Assembly: GCF_002157855.1 (NCBI RefSeq)
Contig: NZ_CP020880.1
Coordinates: forward strand, 1,054,001 to 1,118,000
Reading direction: 5' to 3'
Origin: Sutcliffiella horikoshii
GTDB lineage: Bacteria > Bacillota > Bacilli > Bacillales > Bacillaceae_I
DNA: 64,000 bases
Part shown: piece by piece, positions 29,571 through 46,701 of the stretch
How the letters are laid out: each line of letters opens with the position of its first letter
Position numbering within the stretch: position 1 is the first letter of the stretch
The notes under the pieces: model-generated
Databases searched by the model: none
What the model saw: the letters and a program-made list of their open reading frames with translations, nothing else
What the model was told of the DNA's origin: nothing
Position numbers and translations under genes: made by a program

Positions 29571-29621
29571 TTGCAAATTTGTATACGTTTTCTTATTATG
29601 TAGTTAAAGGTAATAACCTTT
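29571..29621 (+). promoter_or_regulatory. Promoter and GntR operator of the sulfosugar operon
   Basis: TTGCAA (29571-29576) and TATTAT (29594-29599) are separated by 17 bp. The 16-bp operator AAAGGTAATAACCTTT (29606-29621) lies over the expected transcription start. A weak cre match, TGTATACGTTTTCT (29580-29593), lies in the spacer. A half site, AAAGGTAACAA, follows at 29626. Confidence 0.7.
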
Positions 29622-29684
29622 TACAAAAGGTAACAATATTATTATCATTTTAGAAACATCCAGACATTTTAGGAGGGAATTAGA

Positions 29685-30365
29685 ATGAAATATTTTTTAG
29701 ATAGTGCAAAAATTGAAGAGATTCGTTATGCGTATAAGAACTGGGGAATTGATGGAGTTACAACAAACCCAAGACATATCATGAACAGTGGCAAGCCTTT
29801 CTTGACAGTATTGAAAGAATTAGGGGAAGAATTTAAAAACGTGGAGAATTTCCCTATCTCTGTTGAAATCAATCCACACTTAGAAGATCCTGAAGAAATG
29901 GTACGTGAAGGAAAAGAGATTGCTAGTTTATCAAGCAACTTCATCATCAAGATCCCTTGCACGGAGCCAGGCCTTATTGCTGCGAAGAGACTTGAAGAAG
30001 AAGGAATCCGTACCAACGTTACATTGGTATTCTCTCCTTCTCAAGCGTTACAACCTGCTAGAATCGGAGCGAAATTTGTTTCTCCTTTCGTTGGTTGGAA
30101 AGAAAACAGTGGAGAAGATACAGCTCCTTACATTCAAGACATTGTAGATATCTACAAAATGTACAATGCGAAAACGGAAATTATTGTTGCAGCTCTTCGC
30201 AACGGAAAACAAATTGCAGATGCAGCCAAAGCTGGTGCAGATATTGTGACATGCGGATTTGATGTATATAAAGCAAGCTTTGCACATCCATTTACAGATT
30301 ACGGACTAGGTGTTTTCCGTGATGCATGGGATAACACTGCCAAGGAATTGGAAGAAGTGAAGTAA
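29685..30365 (+). CDS. sftT: Transaldolase, probable 6-deoxy-6-sulfofructose transaldolase
   Basis: A 226-residue (beta/alpha)8 class I aldolase. Lys89 in FIIKIPCTE is the expected Schiff-base lysine. GIDGVTTNPRHI carries the family TTNP motif, and TNVTLVFSPSQALQPARIGAKFVSPFVGW follows. In the transaldolase sulfoglycolysis pathway it splits sulfofructose, giving 3-sulfolactaldehyde and passing the C3 unit to glyceraldehyde 3-phosphate to form fructose 6-phosphate. The pathway call rests on the neighbours (sulfoquinovosidase, DUF4867, aldehyde dehydrogenase). Alone it could be a fructose-6-phosphate aldolase. GGAGG precedes the ATG. Confidence 0.85.
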   Translation: MKYFLDSAKIEEIRYAYKNWGIDGVTTNPRHIMNSGKPFLTVLKELGEEFKNVENFPISVEINPHLEDPEEMVREGKEIASLSSNFIIKIPCTEPGLIAAKRLEEEGIRTNVTLVFSPSQALQPARIGAKFVSPFVGWKENSGEDTAPYIQDIVDIYKMYNAKTEIIVAALRNGKQIADAAKAGADIVTCGFDVYKASFAHPFTDYGLGVFRDAWDNTAKELEEVK

Positions 30366-30377
30366 TACTATTAGCCG

Positions 30378-30399
30378 GGCTCTCCATCAACGGAGAGCC
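30378..30399 (+). other. Intercistronic hairpin after the transaldolase gene
   Basis: GGCTCTCC / GGAGAGCC stem with a 6-base loop and no T run. It probably protects the 3' end of the sftT message and raises its level, rather than terminating. Confidence 0.5.
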
Positions 30400-30438
30400 T
30401 GCCTAATATAACACTGCTACTATATAGGAGAGTTGTAA

Positions 30439-31116
30439 ATGTCTAAGCTTGAATTGTTAAGATCACTTAATACAAATCTATCCATTTTCGATATAGATGA
30501 TGAAGAATTCTTACCTTTTGGTAGAATAGTAGAAGAATACGATTTCACAAGTTATCTTAACTATATGAATGAAACGGATATTCCAATGGAAGGCAATGTC
30601 TATATGGCATCGATTCCGGAAATGGAACAAAGAGAGCCTTCCGAATTAATCAAAGATAACTTCTATGGCGGAATGGACATTCAAGTTGGTTATTGTAATG
30701 GTGGAAACTCCACTTTAAATGGATTGGAGTATCATAAATCCAGTGAAATCAACATGGCATGTACCGATATGGTTCTCTTGCTCGGACAGGTCCAAGATAT
30801 CGTAGAGAATACTTTTAAAAGTAATAATGTAACCGGTTTCTTCGTACCGAAGGGAAAAGCGGTTGAACTTTATGCGACAACCCTTCATTTTGCTCCTTGC
30901 AAAGTGCAGGATAAAGGTTTTAAAACGATTGTTATTCTACCAAAAGGTACGAATGAACCATTAAAAGAAGGACTTGAAAGAAAGTCAAAAGAAGACCAAC
31001 TGTTATTTATGAAAAACAAGTGGCTTCTAGCACACCCGGACAGAGAGGTGCTCATGGAAAAGGGAGCACATCCAGGGATTAGTGGAGAAAATATCGAACT
31101 TTTCTATAAATTGTAA
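30439..31116 (+). CDS. DUF4867 (KduI-like cupin) protein of the sulfosugar operon
   Basis: 225 residues, soluble, beta-rich. The family block is YGGMDIQVGYCNGGNSTLNGLEYH, then SEINMACTDMVLLLG, and later YATTLHFAPC. The His and Glu residues in EYHKSSEIN and the His in TTLHFAPC could bind a metal. It is the second gene of the operon. It is a candidate for sulfoquinovose-sulfofructose isomerase or for a mutarotase-like helper. I remember DUF4867 genes in transaldolase-type sulfoquinovose clusters, but not with certainty which step they perform. GGAGAG precedes the ATG. Confidence 0.75.
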   Translation: MSKLELLRSLNTNLSIFDIDDEEFLPFGRIVEEYDFTSYLNYMNETDIPMEGNVYMASIPEMEQREPSELIKDNFYGGMDIQVGYCNGGNSTLNGLEYHKSSEINMACTDMVLLLGQVQDIVENTFKSNNVTGFFVPKGKAVELYATTLHFAPCKVQDKGFKTIVILPKGTNEPLKEGLERKSKEDQLLFMKNKWLLAHPDREVLMEKGAHPGISGENIELFYKL

Positions 31117-31154
31117 ACGCTTAAATAGTTTCTGGAATTGAAGGGGTGACAGAT

Positions 31155-32933
31155 ATGGGGATGTCTAATGTCCTTTTTACATTATTATCATGTATGTTTT
31201 TTATGGGTCTAGTAGCTTGGTTTTCTTATCTGAAAACAAGAGGAGGGGTGAACGATTCAACTGGTTACTTCTTGGCAGGTCGTGGATTAACGGGGATGTT
31301 TATCGCAGGTTCCCTGTTGCTGACAAATCTCTCTGCTGAACAATTGGTTGGTCTTAATGGGGCATCTTACGGGAAGAATATGACCAATATGGCGTGGGAA
31401 GTGACAGCCGCGTTTGCTATCACAATCATGGCTTTGTACTTGCTTCCTAAATATTTGGGAGGGGCTTTTACAACGTTACCAGAGTTTTTAAGCACCCGTT
31501 ATGATGAAGGGGTACGTCGTTACACCGTAATATTATTCATGTTAGGATATATCCTTGTAACTATACCTTCTACGCTATATTCTGGGGCTTTGGCAATATT
31601 AAAGCTTTTTGATGTGCCGGAACTTTTAGGAATTTCATACGGTCAATCTGTTTGGTTGATTATCTGGGTAGTTGGGATTATTGGAGCGATCTATGCGATT
31701 TTTGGAGGATTAAGAGCTGTCGCTGTATCGGATACGATCAATGGAGTAGGATTGCTTTTCATTGGTATGTTGATACCCATTCTTGGCTTTGTCGCTTTAG
31801 GAAACGGCAGTATGGTAGAAGGAATGAAGACCATCGCGCTTACACATCCTGAAAAATTAAATGCCATTGGCGGAAGTGATGATTCTGTACCGTTTGGAAC
31901 CATCTTTACAGGTATGATTTTTGCGAACCTCTTTTATTGGGGAACGAACCAATACGTCATTCAGCGGACGTTAGGAGCAAAAAGTTTATCAGAAGGACAA
32001 AAAGGGGTTCTATACTCTGGATTTTTCAAATTAGCCATTCCGTTATTCATGATGATACCGGGAGTCATTGCGTTTCATTTATATGGAGGAAATTTTGAAT
32101 CAGTAGATTTGGCATACCCGGCACTTGTTGCTGACTTGTTGCCAACTTATATGTCCGGCTTTTTCTTAGCGGTTTTACTTGGTGCGGTTTTCAGTTCTTT
32201 TAATTCTTTATTAAACTCAGCTGCGACGATGTTTGCACTTGATATTTATAAACCGACGATGAATCCAAATGCAACAGATGCGCAACTTATTAAGATTAGT
32301 AAAATCTTTGGTGTATTAATTGCCCTTGTATCGTTCTGTGTATCGCCGCTATTAATGGAAGCGTCTACAGGACTATGGGATTTGATTCGTCGATTTACAG
32401 GATTCTTTAACATTCCGATTATTACCATCGTAATGGTAGGGCTGCTTTCCAAACGAGTTCCAGCACTAGCTGCTAAAGTGGTAGTAATCTTCCACGTAAT
32501 TACGTATTACATGCTTGTATGGGGAACTAATCAAATGTTTGGATTCACGATCGATCTGAACTTTATTCATATTTATGCGATTCTATTCTTTGTGGAAGTT
32601 GGAATCATGTTATTAATTGGTAACGTTAAACCTCTGAAAACACCTTATGTTTACAAAAAGAATGCACAAGTGGAGCTTGCTCCTTGGAAGTACTCTTTAT
32701 TAACTACAGTTATTTTATTAACACTAGTGGTTATGACATATGTTGTCTTTTCACCTATCGGTTTAGCATATGAGACAGCGATTGTTTCACCGTATTTCTG
32801 GCCTATAATGGGTAGTGTGCTCTTGGTGTCGATCATAATGAGTTATTTATCCATGAAAGTTTGGAATAAGAAGTATGAAAACTATCTAGATAAGAAACAA
32901 GAAGAACTTATCAATAATAAAAAATCAGCGTAA
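31155..32933 (+). CDS. Sodium:solute symporter (SSS family), probable sulfosugar importer
   Basis: 592 residues with about 14 membrane helices. SSS landmarks: TGYFLAGRGLTGMFIAGSLLLTNLSAEQLVGLNG in the first helices and GAVFSSFNSLLNSAATMFALDIYKP near the middle (Na+ site Ser/Asn). Family members move sugars with Na+. Located between the transaldolase-pathway genes, it most likely imports sulfoquinovose or its glycoside. The GTG at 31146 overlaps the ribosome site, so ATG 31155 is chosen. Confidence 0.85.
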   Translation: MGMSNVLFTLLSCMFFMGLVAWFSYLKTRGGVNDSTGYFLAGRGLTGMFIAGSLLLTNLSAEQLVGLNGASYGKNMTNMAWEVTAAFAITIMALYLLPKYLGGAFTTLPEFLSTRYDEGVRRYTVILFMLGYILVTIPSTLYSGALAILKLFDVPELLGISYGQSVWLIIWVVGIIGAIYAIFGGLRAVAVSDTINGVGLLFIGMLIPILGFVALGNGSMVEGMKTIALTHPEKLNAIGGSDDSVPFGTIFTGMIFANLFYWGTNQYVIQRTLGAKSLSEGQKGVLYSGFFKLAIPLFMMIPGVIAFHLYGGNFESVDLAYPALVADLLPTYMSGFFLAVLLGAVFSSFNSLLNSAATMFALDIYKPTMNPNATDAQLIKISKIFGVLIALVSFCVSPLLMEASTGLWDLIRRFTGFFNIPIITIVMVGLLSKRVPALAAKVVVIFHVITYYMLVWGTNQMFGFTIDLNFIHIYAILFFVEVGIMLLIGNVKPLKTPYVYKKNAQVELAPWKYSLLTTVILLTLVVMTYVVFSPIGLAYETAIVSPYFWPIMGSVLLVSIIMSYLSMKVWNKKYENYLDKKQEELINNKKSA

Positions 32934-32945
32934 GGGGGATATCCC

Positions 32946-34985
32946 ATGGCAGTTTTCACAGAAAATGAAATGATGCAAGTAGTGACCGAGAATAATAGTT
33001 TTACTGTGACGTGGAAAGGGGAGGAGATTCTTCATCACTCTCCTGACGCTCCCTTCCTCTTTGTAGGTAAAGGACAAGAGAACGTTAAGATGTTTCGTGG
33101 CAATTTTGACATTAAAGACTATGTGACGGAGCGTCTAGCTCTTCCATTTATCCAAGTAAGGAACGAAAGCGATTCTATTAAAATAGATTTTGCAAGTTAC
33201 CCGAATGGACCTTCTGTTGTAACCGTTCAGTTGGTGCAAAAAGAAAATGAAGTAAAACTCGTTTTTGTCAAAGCAACGGAGAATATCAATCGCTTCTGGC
33301 TCCGTCTGAAGGCAAATAAAGAGGAGAATGTGTACGGCTGTGGAGAACAGCTGACTCACTTTAATATGAGAGGAAAGAACTTCCCTCTTTGGACTTCAGA
33401 ACCAGGTGTTGGCAGAAATAAAAGTACCTATGTAACGTGGCAATCAGATGTTACCGGGATGGCCGGCGGAGATTATTATCATACAAATTATCCTCAACCT
33501 ACTTTTGTATCAAGCAGAAAATATTATTGCCATGTGGAAACGACAGCATATGCTGATTTTGATTTCAGAAATGATTCTTTTCATGAGCTTCAAATTTGGG
33601 AAATGCCAAAAGAGGTCGTGCTTGAAGGCGCAAATGACTTTTTGGGGTTGCTCGAAAAAATCACCGATCGATTCGGTCGTCAGCCAGAATTACCAGAGTG
33701 GACTTATAACGGAATCTGGTTGGGGATACAGGGTGGTACGGAGGTAGTCGAAGAAAAACTTGAGAAGGCTCTTGCAAAAGGCGTTAAAGTTGGCGGAGTT
33801 TGGTGTCAGGATTGGCAAGGTATCCGTATGACTTCCTTTGGAAAGCGTCTTATGTGGAATTGGCAATGGAATCCCGAAGTGTATCCAAATCTGGACACTA
33901 AGATTCACGAATGGAAAGAAAAAGGAATACGTTTCTTAGGATACATCAATCCTTATGTGGCAGTGGAAGGGAATTTATTTGCAACAGCCAAAGAAAGAGG
34001 ATATTTGGCACTGAATGAGGAGAATGAAGTTTATCTAGTAGACTTTGGCGAGTTCTATTGCGGAGTGGTTGACTTTACTAATCCTGAAGCAACGGAATGG
34101 TATAAAACGGTCATTCAAGATAATCTGATTGGCTTTGGCTTAGACGGATGGATGGCTGACTTTGGCGAGTATCTTCCTACAGATGTGAAGCTGCACAGTG
34201 GAGAAGATCCAATGGAAATGCATAATGCATGGCCGACCATGTGGGCAAAAGTCAATTATGAAGCAGTTGAAGAATCAGGAAAATTAGGGGAAGTTGTCTA
34301 CTTCATGAGAGCAGGCTATACAGGTATACAAAAATACAATACATTACTATGGGGCGGTGACCAGAGTGTGGACTTCACTCTGGATGATGGTTTAGCATCC
34401 GTCATTCCTGCAGCACTTTCCGCAGGGATGCTTGGAAACGGATTGCATCATAGTGATATCGGCGGATACACCAGCTTGTTTGGCAACAAGCGAAACGAAG
34501 AGCTGTTGTTGCGTTGGACTGAACTTGGCGCTTTCACACCTGTTATGCGTTCCCATGAAGGAAATAGACCTTACGACTGCTTCCAGTTTGACGACACAGA
34601 ACGTTCTCTAGACCAGTTAGCAAAGATGACGACCGTTTATACAACATTGGCATCGTATACAAAGAGTTTGGTGAAACAAAATGCAGAAAAAGGTACACCT
34701 GTACAACGACCGCTTTTCATGCATTATGAAAATGATGAAGCAACTTATGACATACAATATCAATATTTATATGGGAAAGACCTCCTTGTAGCCCCTGTCT
34801 ATGATGAAGGAGTTACAACTTGGGACGTATACCTACCTGAAGATGAATGGATACATGTTTGGAGTGGAAAAGAATATGCAGGCGGGAATATTACTGTGGA
34901 AGCACCAATCGGTGAACCACCTGTTTTCTACCGCAAAGACTCTGAGTGGGCAGATCTATTTGGAAAATTAAAAGAAATAAAGTAA
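32946..34985 (+). CDS. sftG: Sulfoquinovosidase (GH31, YihQ type)
   Basis: A 679-residue GH31 alpha-glycosidase that releases sulfoquinovose from its glycerol or other glycosides. GWMADFGEYLP carries Asp405 (nucleophile); WGGDQSVDF carries Asp472 (acid/base). FGKRLMWNW supplies Arg301 and Trp304; HHSDIGGYTS supplies Tyr508. From memory these are the catalytic and sulfonate-binding residues of E. coli YihQ, at identical numbers. This separates it from ordinary alpha-glucosidases. No signal peptide, so it acts in the cytoplasm after import. It is 12 bp after the symporter gene, in the same operon. Confidence 0.93.
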   Translation: MAVFTENEMMQVVTENNSFTVTWKGEEILHHSPDAPFLFVGKGQENVKMFRGNFDIKDYVTERLALPFIQVRNESDSIKIDFASYPNGPSVVTVQLVQKENEVKLVFVKATENINRFWLRLKANKEENVYGCGEQLTHFNMRGKNFPLWTSEPGVGRNKSTYVTWQSDVTGMAGGDYYHTNYPQPTFVSSRKYYCHVETTAYADFDFRNDSFHELQIWEMPKEVVLEGANDFLGLLEKITDRFGRQPELPEWTYNGIWLGIQGGTEVVEEKLEKALAKGVKVGGVWCQDWQGIRMTSFGKRLMWNWQWNPEVYPNLDTKIHEWKEKGIRFLGYINPYVAVEGNLFATAKERGYLALNEENEVYLVDFGEFYCGVVDFTNPEATEWYKTVIQDNLIGFGLDGWMADFGEYLPTDVKLHSGEDPMEMHNAWPTMWAKVNYEAVEESGKLGEVVYFMRAGYTGIQKYNTLLWGGDQSVDFTLDDGLASVIPAALSAGMLGNGLHHSDIGGYTSLFGNKRNEELLLRWTELGAFTPVMRSHEGNRPYDCFQFDDTERSLDQLAKMTTVYTTLASYTKSLVKQNAEKGTPVQRPLFMHYENDEATYDIQYQYLYGKDLLVAPVYDEGVTTWDVYLPEDEWIHVWSGKEYAGGNITVEAPIGEPPVFYRKDSEWADLFGKLKEIK

Positions 34986-34992
34986 TAGAATT

Positions 34993-35026
34993 AGGGACTG
35001 ATTTTACAAGAGACAGTCCCTTTCTA
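34993..35026 (+). terminator. Possible terminator after the sulfoquinovosidase gene
   Basis: Stem AGGGACTG / CAGTCCCT with a short T tract; termination may be partial. Confidence 0.5.
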
Positions 35027-35047
35027 TTAAAAACAAAGGTTATGATA

Positions 35048-35078
35048 TTTACAAAAAGGTAGTAACCTATGTTATACT
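35048..35078 (+). promoter_or_regulatory. Promoter with embedded GntR operator before the FucI-like gene
   Basis: TTTACA (35048-35053) and TATACT (35073-35078) frame the operator AAAGGTAGTAACCTAT (35055-35070). A repressor bound here would cover the whole spacer. Confidence 0.65.
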
Positions 35079-35108
35079 CAATGTAAGCCTATTCATAAAG
35101 GGGAACTA

Positions 35109-36455
35109 ATGATGCTAACTAACAATATTTTATATGTACCTATCGGAAGAAAAACATTTGATTTAGAAGCAGGGGAAGCATATCGTCTTCAAAGTTCTGA
35201 ATGGTTGAATGCTACCTGTGCAAAGGTAATCGAGCCCAATGGTATTTTAACCTCTGTAGAAGAATTGGAAGCTTTCTTGCAAGAAGCTAAACATGAAAAA
35301 ATTGATACCATTCTATATCAAAGTGTCACATTTGCTGATGGAGAGTTCATGGTTGAGATCTTAAAGCATAGAAAAGAGCCTGTTATTGTATGGTCTGTTA
35401 GAGAACCAAGTGTAGGTGGACGCTTACGTCTAAATTCCTTAACAGGCGGAAACAGCACAAGTAATGTATTACGAAATCATAACCACACCTTTGCGTTTGT
35501 ATTTGGAAATCCAGATGAACAAAAGCTTCAAGATAAATTAACTAAACAATTGAAAGTAAGTAGAGTCCTTGCGCAATTAAATGAATTAACAATCGGTGTA
35601 GTGGGAGAACATCCCCCGGGATTTTTCTTCTCAGACACAAACGAACAAGAACTTAAAGAAGCACTTGGCGTGAACTTATATAAAATGGATTTACAAACTG
35701 CATTTAAAGAATGTGTAGAGCTACCAAAAGAGGAATGGTTACCTGCCATTGAAAGAGCAGAGCAGCAAGTAATCGGCTTAAATCGATCAGATGAAACGGT
35801 GACGAAATTCGCCCAATTCTCTACTTATGTCAAAAAGCATATCGAAGCACATGACATACAGGCAATTGCGGTTAGATGCTGGCCAGACTTTTTCAACGAT
35901 TTAGGAGCTGCGGCTTGTTCCACTCTATCTCAATTTACAGAAGACGGCGTCGTTTCATCCTGTGAGTCAGACATTCATGGCTCTGTATCCATGTTTGTTT
36001 TACAACAATTGAGCGGTGGAAAAGCACCGTATCTTGGGGACCTTGTCCATGTAAATGAAGAAAACAATTCTGTTGTATTCTGGCATTGTGGTGCAGGGGC
36101 GTATTCCTTAGCAAGAGAAGAGACGGGTGCAACAGCAGGTGTTCATCCAAACAGAAAACTTGGATTCACCATGGACTTTGGATTAAAAGCAGGTGGAGTC
36201 ACCATCTTCCGAGTGAGTCATACACCAGAAGGGTATCGTTTACTGATTATGAAAGGAGAAGCGCTTGACTCTCCGCAGCACTTCCAAGGTACTTCTGTAG
36301 AAGTTGCCCTGCAAAAAGATGTGACAGAGACATTATACGAGGTTATGAATGAAGGATTTGAGCCGCATTTTGCCTTAGTATACGATGACGTGGTGGAAGA
36401 ACTAGTTGAACTTGGTAGAATGCTAGGAATTAAAACAGAAATCTATGGCTCTTAA
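35109..36455 (+). CDS. L-fucose/L-arabinose isomerase-like protein, probable sulfosugar isomerase
   Basis: 448 residues with the two-domain fold of the FucI/AraA-like superfamily: an N-terminal region about 1-150, then IGVVGEHPPGFFFSDTNEQELK near 165, and AVRCWPDFFNDLGAAACSTLS and GVVSSCESDIHGSVSMFVLQ near 265-300. Glu and Asp in CESDIHG and His in FWHCGAG are likely metal ligands. Aldose-ketose isomerisation is the chemistry needed for sulfoquinovose to sulfofructose, so this is one of two candidates for that step. It has its own GntR-operated promoter. ATG 35112 is an alternative start. Confidence 0.8.
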   Translation: MMLTNNILYVPIGRKTFDLEAGEAYRLQSSEWLNATCAKVIEPNGILTSVEELEAFLQEAKHEKIDTILYQSVTFADGEFMVEILKHRKEPVIVWSVREPSVGGRLRLNSLTGGNSTSNVLRNHNHTFAFVFGNPDEQKLQDKLTKQLKVSRVLAQLNELTIGVVGEHPPGFFFSDTNEQELKEALGVNLYKMDLQTAFKECVELPKEEWLPAIERAEQQVIGLNRSDETVTKFAQFSTYVKKHIEAHDIQAIAVRCWPDFFNDLGAAACSTLSQFTEDGVVSSCESDIHGSVSMFVLQQLSGGKAPYLGDLVHVNEENNSVVFWHCGAGAYSLAREETGATAGVHPNRKLGFTMDFGLKAGGVTIFRVSHTPEGYRLLIMKGEALDSPQHFQGTSVEVALQKDVTETLYEVMNEGFEPHFALVYDDVVEELVELGRMLGIKTEIYGS

Positions 36456-36498
36456 AAAGAGTTTGCTTGTCTAAGGGGACAACAAAGGGGTTTTTTAT

Positions 36499-37221
36499 AT
36501 GCACCATCAAAGCAACAAACAAATAGCGCTCTATCTTCAAATAAAGGAAACTCTTATACAACGAATCCAAGAGAAGACATGGCTGCCAAACAAATTAATA
36601 CCAACAGAACAAGAGTTGATGAAAGAGTTCGAGGTTAGTAGAACGACCATCAGACAGGCAATAAGCATGATGGTGCAAGATGGATTATTGGAACGGCAGC
36701 AAGGACGGGGTACCATTGTTAAATCCCAACAGCTTGTCGGAAGTTTGGGGAGATTAAAAGGATTTGCTGAAGAAGTGTTAGAGCGGGGATTAACACCATA
36801 TTCTCAGCTAATAAGAGCAGAATTCTCCACCGACTTATATCACGAAAAAGCAATGCTTCAAACGCATGATAACTCCATTTTGGTCATTGAGCGAATTCGA
36901 TTTGCAGATAATTTGCCCATTGCCTTTGAAAGAAGTTGCTGGCCTAAATCAATTGGCGAGAAGCTCATGAAAGAAGAACTCAATCAAGCAAACTTTTACC
37001 AAATCCTTGAGCAAAACGGTATTGCCTTAAGAAAAGCCAATGAAAAAATATCTGCGATGAATGCTACGATGCATGAAGCGGATTTGCTCGGAATTAGGGC
37101 CGGGGAAGCGTTAATTGAGATGACAAGATTAAGTTATGGGATTGACGATAAACCAATCGAGTATACCAGAACGAAATTCCGAAGTGATCAATACCACTAC
37201 AATGTGGAATTAACAAGATGA
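36499..37221 (+). CDS. GntR/HutC-family repressor 1 of the sulfosugar regulon
   Basis: 240 residues. The GntR winged helix (about 10-75) contains LIPTEQELMKEFEVSRTTIRQAISMMVQDGLLERQQGRGT. The UTRA effector domain (about 95-238) ends with EYTRTKFRSDQYHYNVELTR. It is closely similar over its full length to the GntR at 43233. It is located inside the operon driven from 35048. The repeated AAAGGTNGTAACCTTW operators are the likely targets. The effector is probably a sulfosugar or its phosphate, but this is inference. Confidence 0.87.
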   Translation: MHHQSNKQIALYLQIKETLIQRIQEKTWLPNKLIPTEQELMKEFEVSRTTIRQAISMMVQDGLLERQQGRGTIVKSQQLVGSLGRLKGFAEEVLERGLTPYSQLIRAEFSTDLYHEKAMLQTHDNSILVIERIRFADNLPIAFERSCWPKSIGEKLMKEELNQANFYQILEQNGIALRKANEKISAMNATMHEADLLGIRAGEALIEMTRLSYGIDDKPIEYTRTKFRSDQYHYNVELTR

Positions 37222-37234
37222 TAAAGGGGCTGTA

Positions 37235-38668
37235 ATGATGACAACAACAACTATCACAACACACGGACTATATATCAATGGACAAACAGTAGAAACGAAA
37301 GAAACCATGGCAGTAACAAACAAATACACACAAGAAGCGGCATACCATGTTGCTGTTGCGGAACAAGCTCATGTGAAAGAAGCAGTACAAGTAGCAAAAA
37401 ATTCTTTAAAAGAAGATTTTACTCCTTATCAACGCTATCAAGTTTTACTAAAAGCTGCACAGTTATTAGTAGCCAAAAAAGAAGAATTTGCTAAAGTATT
37501 GGCAACAGAGGTAGGAAAGCCAATCAGAGAGTCCAGAGGAGAAGTGGAACGTGCCGCACAGACACTAGAGATTTCTGCAGAAGAAGCTAAAAGAATTCAT
37601 GGGGAAGGTGTCCCGGTAGAAGCTGCACCAGGTTCTGAAAATCGCATGGCATTCACATTGAAAGTGCCAGTTGGAGTTATTGCGGCCATCACACCTTTCA
37701 ACGTACCTCTAAATCTTGTTTGCCATAAAATCGGTCCGGCATTAGCGGCAGGAAACAGTGTCGTACTAAAGCCTGCTGAAGTAACACCTGTATGCGCGTA
37801 TATGCTAGCTGAAGTACTTACAGAGGCTGGTTTGCCAAAAGGGCGTTTACACGTAGTTACTGGAGACGGCCCAAGCATTGGCGACTGGTTGTTAGAAAAT
37901 GGAGATGTTAATATGTTTACCTTTACAGGAAGTCCACGTGTTGGGGAACTAATCCGTCAAAAAGCAGGGCTTAGAAAGGTAGCATTGGAGCTTGGAAACA
38001 ATTCCGCTACAGTGGTTCATTCAGATGCTGACTTAGAACTTGCCTCCTCCATGGTGGCTCAGAAGAGTTTCAATAATGCAGGTCAAGTATGTATTTCGGT
38101 ACAACGTGTGTATGTGCAGGAGGATGTTTATGAGACATTTGTCCAAAAACTTAAAGAGAAAACAGAGAAGTTTGTAGTTGGTAATCCTTTAGAAGAAACA
38201 ACCGATATCGGCCCGATGATCCGCTTAAGCGAAGCAGAGCGTGTGGAGGCTTGGGTTAATGAAGCAGTGGAACAAGGCGCAACGGTTGTAACTGGCGCTA
38301 AACGGGATGGCGCGTTCTATTATCCTACGATTCTTACAGATGTGCATGATGATATGAAGGTTTGCCGTCAGGAGTTGTTTGGACCAGTCGTTTCAGTTGC
38401 ACCTTATACGGAAAAAGAGGAAGTCATTGCGAAAGTGAATGATTCTGATTATGGACTGCAGGCTGGGTTGTTTACAAAGGATTTAGGGTTTGCGATGAAG
38501 GCTGCCAAGGAAATTGAAGTGGGTGGCTTGATTGTGAATGATGCGTCTGCTTATAGAGTGGATAGTATGCCTTATGGTGGCGTGAAGAGAAGCGGTACTG
38601 GAAAAGAAGGCCCTAGATATGCGATTGAGGAAATGACAGAAGAAAGAATCGTTGTATTTAACTTATAA
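37235..38668 (+). CDS. sftD: Aldehyde dehydrogenase, probable sulfolactaldehyde dehydrogenase
   Basis: A 477-residue NAD(P)-dependent aldehyde dehydrogenase. The general base Glu is in KVALELGNNSA and the catalytic Cys in NNAGQVCISVQR. The cofactor motif FTGSPRVGELI lies near residue 228. Lactaldehyde- and succinate-semialdehyde-type enzymes look similar. Beside the transaldolase and sulfoquinovosidase genes, the likely substrate is 3-sulfolactaldehyde, oxidised to 3-sulfolactate, so the cell would excrete sulfolactate rather than dihydroxypropanesulfonate. The ATG has AAAGGGG upstream, 13 bp after gntR. Confidence 0.85.
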   Translation: MMTTTTITTHGLYINGQTVETKETMAVTNKYTQEAAYHVAVAEQAHVKEAVQVAKNSLKEDFTPYQRYQVLLKAAQLLVAKKEEFAKVLATEVGKPIRESRGEVERAAQTLEISAEEAKRIHGEGVPVEAAPGSENRMAFTLKVPVGVIAAITPFNVPLNLVCHKIGPALAAGNSVVLKPAEVTPVCAYMLAEVLTEAGLPKGRLHVVTGDGPSIGDWLLENGDVNMFTFTGSPRVGELIRQKAGLRKVALELGNNSATVVHSDADLELASSMVAQKSFNNAGQVCISVQRVYVQEDVYETFVQKLKEKTEKFVVGNPLEETTDIGPMIRLSEAERVEAWVNEAVEQGATVVTGAKRDGAFYYPTILTDVHDDMKVCRQELFGPVVSVAPYTEKEEVIAKVNDSDYGLQAGLFTKDLGFAMKAAKEIEVGGLIVNDASAYRVDSMPYGGVKRSGTGKEGPRYAIEEMTEERIVVFNL

Positions 38669-38681
38669 ACCGGTTAACTCC

Positions 38682-38716
38682 GCTGTTGATTTCCGCACTG
38701 ATCTTCAATCAACAGC
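38682..38716. repeat. 35-bp remnant of a palindromic repeat arm
   Basis: GCTGTTGATTTCCGC at one end and CTTCAATCAACAGC at the other: only the outer ends of the roughly 125-bp arm remain. It looks like an internal deletion product. Confidence 0.7.
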
Positions 38717-38762
38717 TTATGTTTTCCAATCAACACTAGTATGGTAAAGTAATAGGATGGCC

Positions 38763-38800
38763 TGGCTCGGGTTGGTGGAGCCGGGGCTTTTCCATTTTTT
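38763..38800 (+). terminator. Probable terminator of the sulfosugar operon
   Basis: CTGGCTCGG / GAGCCGGGG hairpin followed by a T-rich tract ending in seven T residues. It argues against starting the AEC gene at 38757. Confidence 0.5.
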
Positions 38801-38822
38801 TAGAGGATTGAGGCGAAAAGGT

Positions 38823-39725
38823 TTGGCTTTTTTACAAGTGCTGCTACCTGTATTTATGATATTTGCCATAGGGTTCATCGGTCAGAAGACTTTGGGGTTT
38901 GATACCAAAACATTATCAAAGATGGCCTTGTACTTGCTTTCTCCCGTACTGGTATTTCGAACTTTTTATACAAATGCATTTAGTAGTAATCATTTATATA
39001 TCATTTTATATACGTTTCTACTTTGTTTTGCACTTATCGCTTTTGTGTATGTACTATCTTGGATTAAAAAATTCACGAGGGCGGAAACTTGCGGGATGAT
39101 TCTCGCGGCAAGTTTCATGAACAATGGTAATTACGGTACTCCGGTTGCATTATTGCTCTTTGGAGCGGCAGGATTTGAGTATGCTGTTGTATTGATGGTC
39201 GTTCAATCATTGTTGATGGGCACAGTTGGGGTGTATTATGCTGCGAAAGGCAGTCCGGAAAATGCTGGCGTAAAAACGGCTTTAAGAGCAGTTATAAAAA
39301 TGCCAATTCTTTACGGAGCTATCTTCGGTTTATCCTTTCAATTTCTATCTATCCCTGTTTCGTCTTCTATAATGGAAGCTGTCGACCTTGTAGCTAATGC
39401 GACTGTTCCTGTGATTATGGTCATTTTAGGGATGCAGTTAGCTAAGATATCTATTAGAAATGCACCAAAGGAAAAATTGGCTTATGCTATTGGCATTAAA
39501 TTATTTCTTTCTCCTTTAATTGCTTTTGGTTTAACAATGATACTTCCTGTTGATCCAATGGTGAAGCAGTTGATGATTATTATGGCTGCGATGCCTACTG
39601 CTGCGAATACGACGATGTATGCGTTGGAGTTTAATACGGAGCCGGATTTTGTTTCAAGTAGTACGTTGATTAGTACGTTGTTGACTATTGTTAGTTTACC
39701 GATTATGTTTTGGATTGTTTTATAG
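38823..39725 (+). CDS. AEC-family transporter
   Basis: About 300 residues, ten hydrophobic helices in two five-helix halves, with the family block AASFMNNGNYGTPVALLLFG near residue 95 and MAAMPTAANTTMYA near 260. AEC carriers export or import organic anions such as malate or auxin-like acids. ATG 38757 is in frame but lies in a likely terminator hairpin. TTG 38823 with GAGG 9 bases before it gives the usual length. Its place after the sulfosugar operon makes sulfolactate export a possibility, but nothing in the sequence proves it. Confidence 0.75.
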   Translation: MAFLQVLLPVFMIFAIGFIGQKTLGFDTKTLSKMALYLLSPVLVFRTFYTNAFSSNHLYIILYTFLLCFALIAFVYVLSWIKKFTRAETCGMILAASFMNNGNYGTPVALLLFGAAGFEYAVVLMVVQSLLMGTVGVYYAAKGSPENAGVKTALRAVIKMPILYGAIFGLSFQFLSIPVSSSIMEAVDLVANATVPVIMVILGMQLAKISIRNAPKEKLAYAIGIKLFLSPLIAFGLTMILPVDPMVKQLMIIMAAMPTAANTTMYALEFNTEPDFVSSSTLISTLLTIVSLPIMFWIVL

Positions 39726-39758
39726 AGTCAGTTCCTTTTTCGGGAGCTGGCTTTTTTT
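39726..39758 (+). terminator. Terminator of the AEC gene
   Basis: Stem AGTCAGTTCC / GGGAGCTGGCT followed by seven T. Confidence 0.75.
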
Positions 39759-39772
39759 GTTTTTTAAACGCC

Positions 39773-39904
39773 GCTGTTGATTTTCGTTCCAGGCGCTTCG
39801 CTTGCCTGCGGGCGGTCCGTGAGCCTCCTCGGCTTGCGCCTCCGGGGTCTCACCTGTCCCTTCCTCCCGCGGGCGTCTGCGCGCCTTTCACTCCATTCAA
39901 CAGC
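39773..39904 (-). repeat. GC-rich palindromic repeat arm, solo copy
   Basis: 132 bp from GCTGTTGATTTTCG to CTCCATTCAACAGC, the best preserved solo arm, with matched 8-bp ends GCTGTTGA / TCAACAGC. Confidence 0.88.
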
Positions 39905-40019
39905 TAGGCACTCAATGAATCAATAAGTCTCTTAAAATATGAAAAATAAATTATGGCAATTTTGAAAAATATTTATTGAATTTACTGAAAAAAGAAAGTA
40001 TTATTTTAATTAGGAGTTG

Positions 40020-40033
40020 TGAAAACGCTGCCA
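40020..40033 (+). promoter_or_regulatory. cre site before the sugar ABC importer
   Basis: TGAAAACGCTGCCA fits TGWAANCGNTNWCA at 13 of 14 positions, about 100 bp before the binding-protein start. Carbon catabolite repression by CcpA is likely. Confidence 0.65.
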
Positions 40034-40072
40034 TTTGACTTTTTCTTGTGTTAGAGGGGTTACTTTATTTTT

Positions 40073-40114
40073 AAAGGTAGTAACGTAAGTAGGTTAAGGT
40101 AGTAACGTTATAAT
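40073..40114 (+). promoter_or_regulatory. Two GntR operators and -10 box before the ABC importer
   Basis: AAAGGTAGTAACGTAA (40073-40088) and TAAGGTAGTAACGTTA (40095-40110) are 22 bp apart, about two helical turns. TATAAT (40109-40114) overlaps the second. The -35 box is poor. Confidence 0.65.
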
Positions 40115-40130
40115 AAAAGGGGGAAATGTA

Positions 40131-41378
40131 GTGAAAAAGTTTAAATTGCTTTCGATCATTTTGGCATTAATGGCGTCACTTGCTTTAGCAGGATGTTCTT
40201 CTGAAGGATCATCTGGTGATAAGGATGGAAAAACTACCATCAGTTTTATTCACTGGCGTGGGGAAGATGTTGAAGTATTTAATGAACTGATAGCTAAGTT
40301 TGAAGAGGAAAATCCAGAAATTAAAGTCGATATGACGGCATACCCGTCGGAACAATACCAATCTACTGCACAAACTTTACTTCGAGATGGTACTACTGGT
40401 GATGTTTTTGTTTCCATGCCTGGTTCACAATTTGAAATCATTCAAAAAGCTGGGTTCTTTGAGGACCTGTCTGGCGAAGAGTTCGTCTCTAATTTTAATG
40501 AAAGTCTCTTAGAAGTCGGGCAAAGTGAAGGAAAACAATATGCATTACCATATCAACTTGTGTTTAACCAACCTATCTATAATGCAGGAATTTTTGAAGA
40601 GTTAGGATTAGAACCACCAACAGATTGGGAAGGGTTCTTGGCTCTATGTGAAACGCTTAAAGAAAATGGATACACACCTATTGCTTTCCCGGGTGCTGAT
40701 ATCGGTCCTGGTCAGTTTATGAACGCTATGATGATGAACAATGCGACAGATGAAGAAGTATTTACAAAACTCGTTAACGGAGAAGTTAAATTGACGGACG
40801 AGTGGTGGGTAAAAACGTTATCTCAATTTAAGGAATTAAACGATAAAGAATATTTCCAAGACAATGCTTTAGGAACAAAGCATGATGGAGCGATTGCTTT
40901 AGTGGGCCAAGAGAAAGCTGCTATGCTTGCTACAGGTTCGTATGCGATGGCAAATATTAAGAGCCATAAAGAAGACGTTAAATTGAATTTGTTGGCACCA
41001 ATTACAGTTTCAGAGTCTGAAGCAAAATATGAAGGTATTCACACTACCACTTTCATGTTGGCAGTTAACAGTAAGTCCGAAAAACAGGAGCAAGCGAAAG
41101 CATTTATTGAGTTCTTGAGTAAACCGGAGAATGCCTCTGTGTATGCGAATAAGACTGGACAGCATTTGACAGTTAACGATGTAAACTATGAATCTGAAGT
41201 TCTAAAAGATACGGTACATTGGATGGATAAAAATACAAGATTCCAACCACGTTATTTAATTCCAAACGCTGATGTGGAAAAAGCCGTTGTTGGTTCGATC
41301 CAAGATGTACTAAGCGGTACCGATCCGGCAGAAGCGGCGAAAAAGGCACAACAAATTGTCGATCAAAATTTAAATTAA
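40131..41378 (+). CDS. ABC sugar-binding lipoprotein, possible sulfoquinovosyl-glycerol receptor
   Basis: 415 residues. The signal peptide ends in the lipobox LALAGC. The mature part is a family-1 solute-binding protein: TTISFIHWRGEDVEVFNELIAKFEEENPEI at its start, FLSKPENASVYANKTGQHLTVN near the end. It captures a sugar or glycoside outside the membrane and hands it to the two permeases downstream. Shared operators with the sulfosugar operon suggest sulfoquinovosyl glycerol. The start is GTG 40131 with AGGGGG upstream. The ligand is inferred, not read from binding residues. Confidence 0.85.
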   Translation: MKKFKLLSIILALMASLALAGCSSEGSSGDKDGKTTISFIHWRGEDVEVFNELIAKFEEENPEIKVDMTAYPSEQYQSTAQTLLRDGTTGDVFVSMPGSQFEIIQKAGFFEDLSGEEFVSNFNESLLEVGQSEGKQYALPYQLVFNQPIYNAGIFEELGLEPPTDWEGFLALCETLKENGYTPIAFPGADIGPGQFMNAMMMNNATDEEVFTKLVNGEVKLTDEWWVKTLSQFKELNDKEYFQDNALGTKHDGAIALVGQEKAAMLATGSYAMANIKSHKEDVKLNLLAPITVSESEAKYEGIHTTTFMLAVNSKSEKQEQAKAFIEFLSKPENASVYANKTGQHLTVNDVNYESEVLKDTVHWMDKNTRFQPRYLIPNADVEKAVVGSIQDVLSGTDPAEAAKKAQQIVDQNLN

Positions 41379-41385
41379 TAGGATT

Positions 41386-41419
41386 AAAGGAGAGGAGGAT
41401 GATGTTCTCCTCTTCCTTT
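41386..41419 (+). other. Intercistronic hairpin after the binding-protein gene
   Basis: AAAGGAGAGGAG / CTCCTCTTCCTTT stem without a long T run. Such hairpins commonly keep the binding-protein message more abundant than the permease part. Confidence 0.6.
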
Positions 41420-41438
41420 CATATGAAAGGGGGATACG

Positions 41439-42314
41439 ATGAAACAGAGTAAGTGGCTTTATTTATTTTTTGTACCCGGTCTTATCTTCTATAGTATTTT
41501 CTTTATCCTCCCAACGATTAGTGCCGTATTTTACTCGTTCACAGATTGGGATGGACTTACTACTAATTTTAATTTTGTAGGATTCGAGAATTATACGAAT
41601 TTAGTTACCAATGATTCTATTTTTATTAAATCAATGACAAACAACTTGAAATTCATGTTGTTTGTAGTCGTTTTTCAAACTTTGTTTTCATTGGTGTTTG
41701 CGGTTTTACTTGTTAAAAATACTAAAACAAATATTTTCCTTAGAGCTTTGTATTTCTTTCCGACCATTCTTTCCTCCATTTCAGTAGCTTTTATCTGGTC
41801 CTATATGTATGATCCTAACTTAGGAATCATCAATAACCTCTTTACTAGTGTAGGACTTGAAATGCTTGCGAACAATTGGCTCGGTGATCAAAACATTGCC
41901 ATATACTCCATCGCTTTTGTACAAGTGTGGTTCCATACAGGGCAGATGTTAATTATTTTTGTTGCTGGTTTGCAAGCAATACCTGAGGATCTATACGAAG
42001 TGGCCAAAATTGAAGGAGCCAGCCGCTGGCAAACTTTCAGCAAGGTAACATGGCCGCTGATTGCTCCGGCTGCGACTATTGTGGTTGCTTATACAACCAT
42101 CCAGTCTTTTAAAGCATTTGATCTGATATATGCCATGACAAGGGGTGGTCCGAACTATGCCACGGAGATTCTCGCAACCCATATATACACAACAGCATTC
42201 AGAAGCTTTAAATTTGGATATGCATCAGCGGAGTCCGTTATCTTTATGCTGGTCATAGCCCTTATTACATTCCTGCAATTCCGTGTACTACGGGCAAACA
42301 GAGTAGAAAATTAG
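41439..42314 (+). CDS. ABC sugar permease, MalF/UgpA type
   Basis: 291 residues, six membrane helices. The EAA loop that touches the ATPase reads YEVAKIEGASRWQTFSKVTWPLIAPA near residue 190. N-terminal FFVPGLIFYSIFFILPTISAVFYSFTDWDG is typical of the first permease of CUT1 importers. AGGGGG precedes the ATG. Second gene of the operon. Confidence 0.9.
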   Translation: MKQSKWLYLFFVPGLIFYSIFFILPTISAVFYSFTDWDGLTTNFNFVGFENYTNLVTNDSIFIKSMTNNLKFMLFVVVFQTLFSLVFAVLLVKNTKTNIFLRALYFFPTILSSISVAFIWSYMYDPNLGIINNLFTSVGLEMLANNWLGDQNIAIYSIAFVQVWFHTGQMLIIFVAGLQAIPEDLYEVAKIEGASRWQTFSKVTWPLIAPAATIVVAYTTIQSFKAFDLIYAMTRGGPNYATEILATHIYTTAFRSFKFGYASAESVIFMLVIALITFLQFRVLRANRVEN

Positions 42315-42329
42315 AAGGGGGGAAAGACG

Positions 42330-43139
42330 ATGAAATGGACAAAAAAACTACTACTGTTCATCTATGCAACTCTTATTCTAGTGCCAGTGATATCTATCAT
42401 ACTAGCAACTTTTAAAACAACATCTGAAATTTATGAAAATATATTAAGTCTGCCATCTAGCTTCAACTTTAGTAACTACTTTGGAATCTTCCAAGAGCAG
42501 GCGATGGGCACCTATTTTTTAAACAGTGTACTGGTGACATTGGTATCGGTAGTTTTTACTTTGTTTTTTGCAAGTCTTGTGGCTTTTGGCATTACAAGGC
42601 TCGGAGGCTGGATCGGTGGCGGTATATTCGTGTTCTTTACCATTGGAATGATGGTGCCGGCTCAAGTTAACATGATACCTTTGTATCAATTAGTCTACAG
42701 TTTAGGTTTGACCAATTCATTAGTAGGTTTAATGATAGTCAATCTTTCCGTTACCCTGCCTGTAGCAGTTTTCATTCTTTCCGGATTCATGAGGTCCCTG
42801 CCTAAATCCTTGTTTGAAGCATGTACAATTGACGGAGGGAACAACTGGCAGATGTACTATCGAATTGCATTGCCGCTATCCCTGCCATCCTTGTCGGCTA
42901 CCGCTATTTTTCTATTTGTGATGCATTGGAATGACCTTCTCTATCCACTTTTATTTATCACAAAAGCGGAATACAAAACCCTTCCTCTAGCACTATTAGA
43001 ATTCCAGGGTGAATATATGACGAACTATCCCATGTTATTTACAGGAGTTATTATCGCTTCTGCTCCAATGATTCTCGCGTATCTTTTCCTTCAACGTTAC
43101 TTTGTTGCCGGAATGACTGCGGGTTCGGTTAAGGGATAA
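42330..43139 (+). CDS. ABC sugar permease, MalG/UgpE type
   Basis: 269 residues, six membrane helices. EAA loop: FEACTIDGGNNWQMYYRIALPLSLPS near residue 165. It pairs with the preceding permease to form the channel. No ATP-binding subunit is encoded anywhere in this operon or window, so a shared MsmX/UgpC-type ATPase encoded elsewhere must drive transport. Ribosome site GGGGGG about 8 bases before the ATG. Confidence 0.9.
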   Translation: MKWTKKLLLFIYATLILVPVISIILATFKTTSEIYENILSLPSSFNFSNYFGIFQEQAMGTYFLNSVLVTLVSVVFTLFFASLVAFGITRLGGWIGGGIFVFFTIGMMVPAQVNMIPLYQLVYSLGLTNSLVGLMIVNLSVTLPVAVFILSGFMRSLPKSLFEACTIDGGNNWQMYYRIALPLSLPSLSATAIFLFVMHWNDLLYPLLFITKAEYKTLPLALLEFQGEYMTNYPMLFTGVIIASAPMILAYLFLQRYFVAGMTAGSVKG

Positions 43140-43232
43140 GATGTTTTGCAATAAATGGTAGTGATGATACTATCTTTTACAGGTGAAACATATTAGAATA
43201 GAGGTAGATAGGTAAAAGGAGTGTCGGCAACA

Positions 43233-43958
43233 GTGAAAATAAATCATAGCAGTCCTGTGCCACTATATCACCAAATCAAAGATATATTGGTAAAAAGGAT
43301 TGTGGATAAAGTGTGGGGACCTGGAGACTTGATTCCCACAGAACAGGAACTGATGAAAGAATTCGATGTGAGTAGAACAACTATTAGACAGGCGATTACA
43401 TCGATGGTCCATGATGGACTTTTGGAGAAAAAGCAAGGAAAAGGAACGACAGTCAAGTATCAGAAGTTAGTTGGATCCCTTGGTCGTCTCACAGGCTTTG
43501 CTGAAGAAGTGATGGAAAAAGGCTTGATGCCTCATTCCAAGTTATTAAGAACCGAATTCAGGGATGACCTTTTTATTGAAAAAGCTAAACTCAACTTAAA
43601 TGATGAGGATAAAATATTGGTAATTGACCGAATTCGCTTTGTGAACGATTTACCGATTGCGCTTGAACGTACGTGTTGGCCGGAGGAAATCGGTGAAATT
43701 TTATTAAAACATGATCTCAATAACGCTAAGTTTTATCAGATCCTAGAAGAAAACGGCGTTATGTTGAAAAAAGCAAACGAAAAAATATCAGCAGTCAATG
43801 CAACGCTTCATGACGCGGATCTTCTCGGTATAAGCGGTGGCCAAGCTTTACTGGAAATGACTCGTTTGAGCTATGGCATAAACGACAAGCCAATCGAATA
43901 TGCCAAAACGAAATACCGCTCCGACCAATATCAATACCAAGTAGAACTAACAAGATAA
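43233..43958 (+). CDS. GntR/HutC-family repressor 2, paralogue of the 36499 gene
   Basis: About 241 residues with the same winged-helix (LIPTEQELMKEFDVSRTTIRQAITSMVHDGLLEKKQGKGT) and UTRA layout as the other GntR. Recognition-helix residues SRTTIRQAI are identical, so both should bind the same operator. A degenerate operator-like AATGGTAGTGATGATA is at 43154-43169, before this gene. I choose GTG 43233 because GTG 43221 overlaps AAGGAG, although spacing to 43233 is 11 bases. It lies in line with the importer genes. Confidence 0.85.
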   Translation: MKINHSSPVPLYHQIKDILVKRIVDKVWGPGDLIPTEQELMKEFDVSRTTIRQAITSMVHDGLLEKKQGKGTTVKYQKLVGSLGRLTGFAEEVMEKGLMPHSKLLRTEFRDDLFIEKAKLNLNDEDKILVIDRIRFVNDLPIALERTCWPEEIGEILLKHDLNNAKFYQILEENGVMLKKANEKISAVNATLHDADLLGISGGQALLEMTRLSYGINDKPIEYAKTKYRSDQYQYQVELTR

Positions 43959-43960
43959 CC

Positions 43961-44004
43961 AAAAAACTGCCACAGCGCCCAAACCTAGCCTGTGGCAGTT
44001 TTTT
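43961..44004. terminator. Strong terminator closing the importer/GntR unit
   Basis: Perfect 15-bp stem AAAAAACTGCCACAG / CTGTGGCAGTTTTTT. Confidence 0.92.
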
Positions 44005-44027
44005 AATATGTAAAGTGTATAAGGACA

Positions 44028-44350
44028 GTTGATTTCCGTTCCAGGCGCTTCGCTTGCCTGCGGGCGGTCCGGAAGCCTCCTCGGGCATTCGCCCTGTGGG
44101 GTCTTCCCTGTCCCTTCCTCCCGCGGGCGTCTGCGCGCCTTCCACTCCAATCAACAAGAAATCCCATTCAATCAAAGATTTATAAAAAACGCTTGCATGG
44201 AGTCAACTGTAAAACATAATTCTAGCTGGTGATTGGAGCACGGGGCGAAGACTCCTGAGGGAGATAGCGGTAGGTTGAGACCCCGCAACGAAGTGAGGAG
44301 GCTCAAGCACCGCCCCTAGGAAAGCGAAGCCCAGTGCGGAAATCACCAGC
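44028..44350. repeat. Composite repeat D: two head-to-head palindromic arms around a spacer
   Basis: Minus-oriented arm 44028-44155; plus-oriented arm 44225-44350; 69-bp spacer. The plus arm ends in GCTGGTGATT / AATCACCAGC, while other copies end in GCTGTTGATT-like sequence: a paired change that keeps the stem. Confidence 0.85.
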
Positions 44351-44384
44351 GGTGTTCATACAACTTTCTATCATTTTCATACAA

Positions 44385-44447
44385 AAAGGTTGTAACCTTA
44401 ATACAAAACGTATTAAAATGTAGGTAAGAAAAATGTAAGCGTTACAA
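44385..44447 (+). promoter_or_regulatory. GntR operator, promoter and cre-like site before glpP
   Basis: AAAGGTTGTAACCTTA (44385-44400) is the same operator as in the sulfosugar island. TTGTAA (44390) and TAAAAT (44414) form a possible promoter with 18-bp spacing. TGTAAGCGTTACAA (44434-44447) is a cre-like palindrome one base shorter than consensus. Confidence 0.6.
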
Positions 44448-44483
44448 CTAAACTCGATTACCAGATGAATTGAGGTAAACTAT

Positions 44484-45041: not shown

Positions 45042-46553
<1,512 letters not shown>

Positions 46554-46606
46554 GCGTTGCATATGATATACTAAAAACAAGTTAATATTTCGGTTGGAGA
46601 TTAGGA

Positions 46607-46665: not shown

Positions 46666-46701
46666 GTATATATACCTACTAAGAGGATGGAGGCAATTAA
46701 G

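Follow-up and report, generated by a model that had tools for sequence, protein, structure and literature searches.

Transaldolase sulfoglycolysis of the plant sulfo-sugar sulfoquinovose (SQ) is an already known pathway (sulfo-TAL/sulfo-SFT), and reviews of Priestia megaterium and P. aryabhattai describe it with a transaldolase, a DUF4867 protein, a GH31 enzyme, an isomerase and oxidation to sulfolactate (PMC12890257; PMC9594981); the four proteins recur in the locus analyzed here, for which the oxidation is predicted. Eubacterium rectale, whose sulfo-SFT pathway yields 2,3-dihydroxypropane-1-sulfonate (DHPS), grows on SQ-glycerol and has a kinase gene inside its cluster; this glycerol kinase, its authors suggest, may help to use the freed glycerol (PMC11968277). 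SQ utilization in Agrobacterium involves a sugar ATP-binding cassette (ABC) importer for SQ-glycerol, with the binding protein SmoF (PMC9594981; PMC11659671). In the anaerobe Faecalicatena, which follows a bifurcated transketolase/transaldolase route, the SQ cluster is described as holding an SQ-induced binding protein 32% identical to the Agrobacterium one, a glycerol dehydrogenase and a dihydroxyacetone kinase (PMC11659671). Here we examine a 64,000-nucleotide stretch (the window) of the 4.3-Mb genome of Sutcliffiella horikoshii (contig NZ_CP020880.1, positions 1,054,001 to 1,118,000), in which a sulfo-TAL gene set is followed by a CUT1-type ABC importer and the glycerol operon glpP-glpK-glpD. 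We propose that a shared operator joins these genes into one regulon for sulfoquinovose and its glycoside, a reading that the comparative sequence evidence makes fairly probable.

The first seven genes span positions 29685-38668 of the window in the order sftT, sftX, Na+ symporter, GH31, sftI, GntR-UTRA regulator and aldehyde dehydrogenase:

29685..30365, + strand: sftT/sqvA, 6-deoxy-6-sulfofructose transaldolase; Lys89 present, SF-TAL 8bc3 the best solved relative
30439..31116, + strand: sftX/sqvB, DUF4867 cupin metalloprotein; 9gyy, 308 bits
31146..32933, + strand: Na+/solute symporter (SSF), candidate SQ importer; PRK10484, 719 bits (cut-off 401)
32946..34985, + strand: GH31 sulfoquinovosidase of the SftG/YihQ type; PRK10426, 1034 bits (cut-off 553)
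35109..36455, + strand: sftI/sqvD, sulfoquinovose isomerase; NCBIfam NF048012, 843.7 bits (cut-off 700)
36499..37221, + strand: GntR-UTRA regulator 1 (GntR1), putative repressor; family match, homologue in SQ loci
37235..38668, + strand: aldehyde dehydrogenase, putative sulfolactaldehyde dehydrogenase (SlaB); Aldedh, 525 bits

The core pathway is almost certainly transaldolase sulfoglycolysis, as a preliminary description of the window had proposed for these seven genes, and all the genes it named are open at the positions it gave them. Searches against characterized relatives matched SF-TAL 8bc3, 9gyy, SftG 6pnr, YihQ 5aed and NF048012, and catalytic and ligand residues are in place. SftT aligns with the Bacillus megaterium sulfofructose (SF) transaldolase 8bc3 over residues 1-222 at 405 bits, the next other transaldolase reaching 167 bits, and it conserves Lys89, described as the Schiff-base lysine of SF transaldolase (PMC12890257). 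A second transaldolase-like gene, 39% identical, lies elsewhere in the genome. SftX has the 2His-2Glu metal site, with E97, H99, E103 and H150 as ligands in the numbering of PMC11968277, where the function of this DUF4867 protein is given as still unproven; any role of SftX in the pathway here would be putative. The GH31 protein matches the solved sulfoquinovosidases 8r56, 6pnr (SftG of E. rectale) and 5aed (YihQ of Escherichia coli). It has Q288, R301, W304, D405, D472 and Y508, which we take to be the sulfonate-binding and key residues of E. coli YihQ under the same numbers; together with Lys89 of SftT and with SftI, these residues are the marks of sulfo-TAL that we found in the window. For the aldehyde dehydrogenase, no NCBIfam model reaches its cut-off among the matches listed (25 of 44), and sulfolactate would be the end product because this gene is present. 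The set recurs widely: in 48 SQ loci of other genomes (the window excluded, and L109 and L110, below the SftI cut-off, included), homologues were found of a sulfoquinovosidase of GH31 or GH188 type in 47, a GntR of the GntR1 type in 46, the aldehyde dehydrogenase in 45, the AEC permease that follows it in 40 and the Na+ symporter in 34. S. horikoshii KcN35-3, the nearest named match in our scan, has an identical gene order, with proteins from sftX to pgm 92-99% identical.

The neighboring transport and glycerol genes share with this set a 14-bp palindrome, AAGGTWRTAACSTT, of which five intergenic copies precede sftT, sftI and glpP (one each) and the importer (two):

29607..29620, no strand assigned: operator AAGGTAATAACCTT, 21.1 bits, just past the promoter-like -10 of sftT
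35056..35069, no strand assigned: operator AAGGTAGTAACCTA before sftI, 18.9 bits
40074..40087, no strand assigned: operator AAGGTAGTAACGTA before the importer, 17.4 bits
40096..40109, no strand assigned: operator AAGGTAGTAACGTT, second before the importer, 19.6 bits
44386..44399, no strand assigned: operator AAGGTTGTAACCTT before glpP, 22.1 bits, the best of the five, over a promoter-like -35

These scores (17.4-22.1 bits) stand clear of the next-best site in the 64 kb, at only 12.6 bits, and 60 first-order Markov sequences of 64 kb contained no site of at least 17 bits. The exact form AGGTWRTAACST occurs at nine places in the genome, of which five are these operators, three lie inside open reading frames (ORFs) and one in an inter-ORF gap; the looser form AGGTNNTAACNT shows no genome-wide enrichment (38 matches, against 82 for the reversed control). 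Promoter-like sequences were found before sftT (TTGCAA-17-TATTAT, 29571-29599) and before glpP (TTGTAA-18-TAAAAT, 44390-44419), the -35 of the latter being overlapped by the operator. A palindromic operator before each unit, as in a GntR/HutC-type regulon, is found throughout, except that the matrix scan of the window assigns no separate site to the AEC and GntR2 genes. The sites fit the form GGT-N4-ACC, which we take to be that of HutC-type operators, and the two regulators GntR1 and GntR2, 67% identical, both have SRTTIRQAI at the expected position of the recognition helix.

Since the window's own five sites are among the six Sutcliffiella sites behind the operator matrix, it is other genera that provide the independent test. 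A scan of 41 SQ loci at a threshold of 12 bits, with the genus and L110 left out, returned 48 intergenic matches, 42 of them no more than 350 bases upstream of a window-gene homologue and spread over 30 loci; the targets were sftI (25), the binding protein (9), sftX (6), the aldehyde dehydrogenase (1) and a glpP-like gene (1). Column-permuted palindromes (200 of them) gave a mean of 1.6 matches with a standard deviation of 3.0. Three results weigh on the other side: the most productive of these control motifs reached 22 matches, 11 of the 41 loci had no operator match before a gene, and promoter-like matches were no commoner than in shuffled sequence (40 against 43). On balance we hold with high confidence that the operator regulon is real, and the earlier proposal that shared operators link the importer and glp genes to the SQ set agrees both with the five sites and with the comparison across genera.

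Downstream of the aldehyde dehydrogenase lie an AEC permease, the binding protein and two permeases of the importer, and the second GntR gene, followed by glpP-glpK-glpD:

38757..39725, + strand: AEC-type permease (Mem_trans), candidate sulfonate exporter; listed start probably too early
40131..41378, + strand: lipoprotein sugar-binding protein of the CUT1 importer; SBP_bac_1, neighborhoods and tree
41439..42314, + strand: importer permease 1; BPD_transp_1, UgpA-like but under cut-off
42330..43139, + strand: importer permease 2; BPD_transp_1, GlcU-like but under cut-off
43221..43958, + strand: GntR-UTRA regulator 2 (GntR2), of a different lineage from GntR1

The importer has no ATPase gene beside it; the genome encodes a MalK-like ATPase at another place (59% to the query), and CUT1 importers that use an ATPase encoded elsewhere are usual in Bacilli. 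That the importer carries SQ or an SQ glycoside is, judging from gene contexts, likely. In a drawn sample of 397 genomes of the order, counted by hand, 43 hold the binding protein (E <=1e-80) and 48 are SftI-positive (47 over the cut-off and G096 just under it); 27 hold both, against about five expected by chance (Fisher test, uncorrected for kinship). Within the fetched stretches of the 48 SQ loci, the importer occurs without the symporter in 10, both in 7, the symporter alone in 27 (a label that is unreliable for the contig-cut L033 and L036) and neither in 4. Six of the 10 importer-only loci have relatives of GH188-type sulfoquinovosidases, identified through their similarity to proteins that match 8qc2/8qc3 best among solved structures; we take these two to be GH188.

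The named scan found 153 relatives of the binding protein, and we classified the best 80 of the 153 by neighborhood. Twenty-six sit in SQ clusters, 24 with sftI in reach and two in contig-cut loci of Sutcliffiella relatives (L173 and L174, counted as SQ as the sft genes of their genomes sit on other contigs). A further 15 lie downstream of, and on the same strand as, a gene resembling the alkanesulfonate monooxygenase gene ssuD (36-100% identical to the Metabacillus query), with no more than 262 bases to the nearest such gene in the loci where both ORFs were called; one of these loci, L246, has no called binding-protein ORF and is absent from the tree. In nine of the 15 the SsuD-like genes were compared with NCBIfam: four pass the alkanesulfonate monooxygenase cut-off, and the remaining five, all from Paenibacillaceae, have that model as best match under its cut-off. 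With 26 of 80 relatives in SQ clusters and 15 behind an SsuD-like gene, the cargo is likely to be one conserved ligand class, a sulfonated sugar, reused by different pathways. The two contexts are interspersed in the binding-protein tree, where the SQ label changes nine times and the SsuD label six.

The SsuD arrangement is seen in Metabacillus indicus (L175:8914-12198), L176 and others, where the SsuD-like gene precedes an importer of the same type, and methionine-synthesis-type genes follow in the matching locus L151; such importers possibly serve sulfur scavenging from sulfo-sugars. A riboswitch before the SsuD-importer genes was sought in seven of the 15 loci and none was seen; the SAM riboswitches of L175 and L176 follow the importer genes, and L216 has an M-box on the opposite strand. 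Upstream of the importer in L161 (10770-11854), the gene for a luciferase-type monooxygenase is broken into two ORFs, with a similar split in L230.

The same survey bears on whether the importer might carry another sugar and merely share its regulator with a core island for SQ catabolism. The closest solved relatives of the binding protein are MsmE, XylA, xylo-oligosaccharide binding proteins and other sugar binders; in a profile search of solved sequences SmoF scored 45.8 bits, far down the list and below 39 others, and we rejected the protein as a SmoF orthologue because the homology is remote. Moreover, four of the best 80 relatives adjoin phosphomannose-isomerase-like genes, three of them also GDSL-lipase-like genes, and the neighborhoods of 35 contain none of the genes sought (26 of these in one Planococcus/Planomicrobium clade, with neighbors examined singly in eight), so the cargo may be broader than SQ compounds. 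Such an importer is nonetheless hard to reconcile with its presence without a symporter in 10 of 48 SQ loci, or with the 15 relatives that follow an SsuD-like gene, and no alignment column separates the SQ- and SsuD-linked members from the other 35 at the thresholds set; we consider a different sugar improbable. Residues that would mark the SQ/SsuD-linked binding proteins were looked for and none emerged. The four isomerase-adjacent relatives belong to Jeotgalibacillus (L187, L192, L193, L223), and a search of their loci for the sulfonate genes gave none; L162, a copy of L187, also has a ROK gene.

A stronger competitor, to which we give roughly one part in three of our belief, is a high-affinity importer for free SQ, with use of SQ-glycerol, its glycerol included, being incidental. 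The 15 SsuD-linked loci speak for it, as none has a GH31/GH188 sulfoquinovosidase at the thresholds used within flanks of up to 10 kb, whereas the sulfoquinovosidase homologues of 47 of 48 SQ loci and the operator that ties in glycerol at glpP point to a glycoside. Since relatives also stand behind SsuD-like genes without a sulfoquinovosidase, or away from all genes sought, SQ alone or both compounds could be the cargo, and SQ-glycerol in particular falls slightly short of an even bet. The preliminary view of a locus built for sulfoquinovosyl-glycerol therefore exceeds the evidence, even though it agrees with the presence of a sulfoquinovosidase and of an operator before glpP.

The last of the five sites lies before the glycerol operon:

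44484..45041, + strand: glpP, glycerol-3-phosphate responsive antiterminator; Pfam G3P_antiterm, 219.6 bits (cut-off 27)
45042..46553, + strand: glpK, glycerol kinase (FGGY); PRK00047, 885 bits (cut-off 498)
46603..46664, + strand: terminator-like hairpin before glpD; 131-base fold of -40.3 kcal/mol, z -5.6
46594..48408, + strand: glpD, glycerol-3-phosphate dehydrogenase/oxidase family; Pfam DAO and DAO_C, listed start too early

The glpK gene is the only strong glycerol kinase match in the genome, the next matches being 26% identical; for the glpD product all NCBIfam models stay under their cut-offs. The hairpin before glpD is, from its sequence, a likely target of GlpP; an Rfam search of the whole window returned nothing at the gathering score. 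Among 16 genomes of the genus, seven are SftI-positive and 14 have a glpP match (G003, 80% complete, and G017, both SftI-negative, lack one and were left out of the count). An operator precedes glpP in all seven SQ-positive genomes and in none of the seven SQ-negative genomes with that glpP orthologue. It is kept in the seven with a single base change, in G013. When the seven promoters are aligned, two columns vary from the operator through the -10, in contrast to a highly variable flank upstream.

We conclude that the glp operon is probably under the SQ regulators. The operator could instead be a passenger, with CcpA or the leader controlling glp independently of the SQ regulators in practice: a cre-like sequence lies at ~44434, with one mismatch to what we presume to be the consensus, and the whole region appears to travel as one unit. 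We regard this as unlikely, as the glpP site is the best-scoring of the five, overlaps a promoter-like -35 and is better conserved than the flank upstream of it, and as a weak operator (12.7 bits) also stands between the importer's binding-protein gene and a divergent G3P_antiterm gene in Alkalicoccus urumqiensis (L226:9113-11302), whose genome has a second G3P_antiterm gene.

Several observations temper the argument for SQ control of glp drawn from the genus. In the SQ-negative genomes the AEC gene is the immediate upstream neighbor of glpP, at a distance of 45-123 bases, and the stretch from ~29527 to ~38800 is absent (its left edge clear in five of the seven). The tree of GlpK/GlpD mixes SQ-positive and SQ-negative genomes with starred support, placing G013 with G011 and G007 within the G012/G014/G015 group, whereas the AEC tree separates SQ-positive (99/92) from SQ-negative (92/77) genomes. 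The island, AEC and the glp promoter were thus probably moved as a block, exchanged or lost, so the 7:7 operator pattern does not amount to 14 independent trials; it may reflect one or a few events and is supportive, not decisive. A MIP-family glycerol channel was not found in this genome. We rejected this as proof that glycerol comes from SQ-glycerol: the missing channel says little because 13 of the 16 genus genomes, SQ-negative ones included, also lack it, and the SQ-positive G013 has it. Of the earlier claim of a complete SQ-glycerol route with glycerol recovered through GlpK and GlpD, the genes and the operator before glpP stand, and SQ-glycerol as the ligand goes beyond the evidence.

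Absence of the island from SQ-negative genomes could reflect plain insertion in the SQ-positive ones or loss, the latter being possible because the AEC left beside glpP joins AECs of other-genus clusters (88/87, not starred). AEC stays beside glpP in the seven Sutcliffiella genomes without the pathway, and there it may be an exporter with a second role or a relic of a lost island. GntR2 groups (98/96) not with GntR1 of its own genome but with the GntR of G069, G353 and G259, in each of which the cluster contains the importer too; a recent within-genus duplication of GntR1 was therefore rejected, and the importer with GntR2 has the look of another SQ module that was added to the first one. G013 lacks the importer but keeps GntR2 and the glpP operator. 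The importer-GntR2 module is bracketed by two copies of a ~130-base repeat (39776-39902 and 44028-44156), which has 40 close copies (>=92%) in the genome, scored out of 283 candidates; they lie mostly on the + strand below ~2.1 Mb and on the - strand above, as if oriented with replication, and many have a weaker inverted partner ~200 bases off.

In the regulon that we propose, SQ or SQ-glycerol would enter through the Na+ symporter and through the binding-protein importer, the latter borrowing an ATPase encoded elsewhere, and the GH31 enzyme would release SQ and glycerol. SftI would convert SQ to sulfofructose, SftT would transfer its C3 unit to glyceraldehyde-3-phosphate, and the aldehyde dehydrogenase would oxidize the sulfolactaldehyde to sulfolactate, which would exit, perhaps via the AEC permease. 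The two GntR-UTRA proteins, with near-identical DNA-recognition segments, would repress four promoters through AAGGTWRTAACSTT and release them when an SQ-derived ligand binds. As the fourth of these promoters would drive glpP-glpK, glycerol kinase would be made together with the SQ enzymes, and GlpP would then let transcription continue into glpD.

If this is correct, a sulfo-sugar switches on glycerol use in Sutcliffiella through its only clear glycerol-kinase operon, and the apparent placing of that operon under SQ control suggests that the sugar and the attached glycerol are used together. The operator offers a testable element for SQ clusters in Bacilli, and the importer a candidate second family of SQ importers whose relatives also adjoin desulfonating-type enzymes. 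The broadest form of the proposal, that a widespread non-SmoF importer family of Bacilli takes up SQ or its glycosides for carbon, through sulfoglycolysis, and probably for sulfur, through an SsuD-like enzyme encoded next to it, and that SQ regulators captured the promoter of the glpK operon, we hold as evenly poised. New by computation are the operator, the contexts of the importer family and the distribution of the glpP operator in the genus; no description of this operator, importer family or SsuD-like pairing appeared in the portions of the open-licence literature that our search reached. The idea of a glycerol kinase working with SQ is not itself new, since the SQ cluster of E. rectale had been reported to contain one (PMC11968277). 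There the kinase gene lies inside the cluster, whereas here the SQ operator stands before the neighboring glp operon, and the expected product is sulfolactate instead of DHPS. Compared with the Priestia sulfo-TAL systems as reviews present them, what the Sutcliffiella locus has in addition is the CUT1 importer, GntR2 from a different lineage and the glpP operator.

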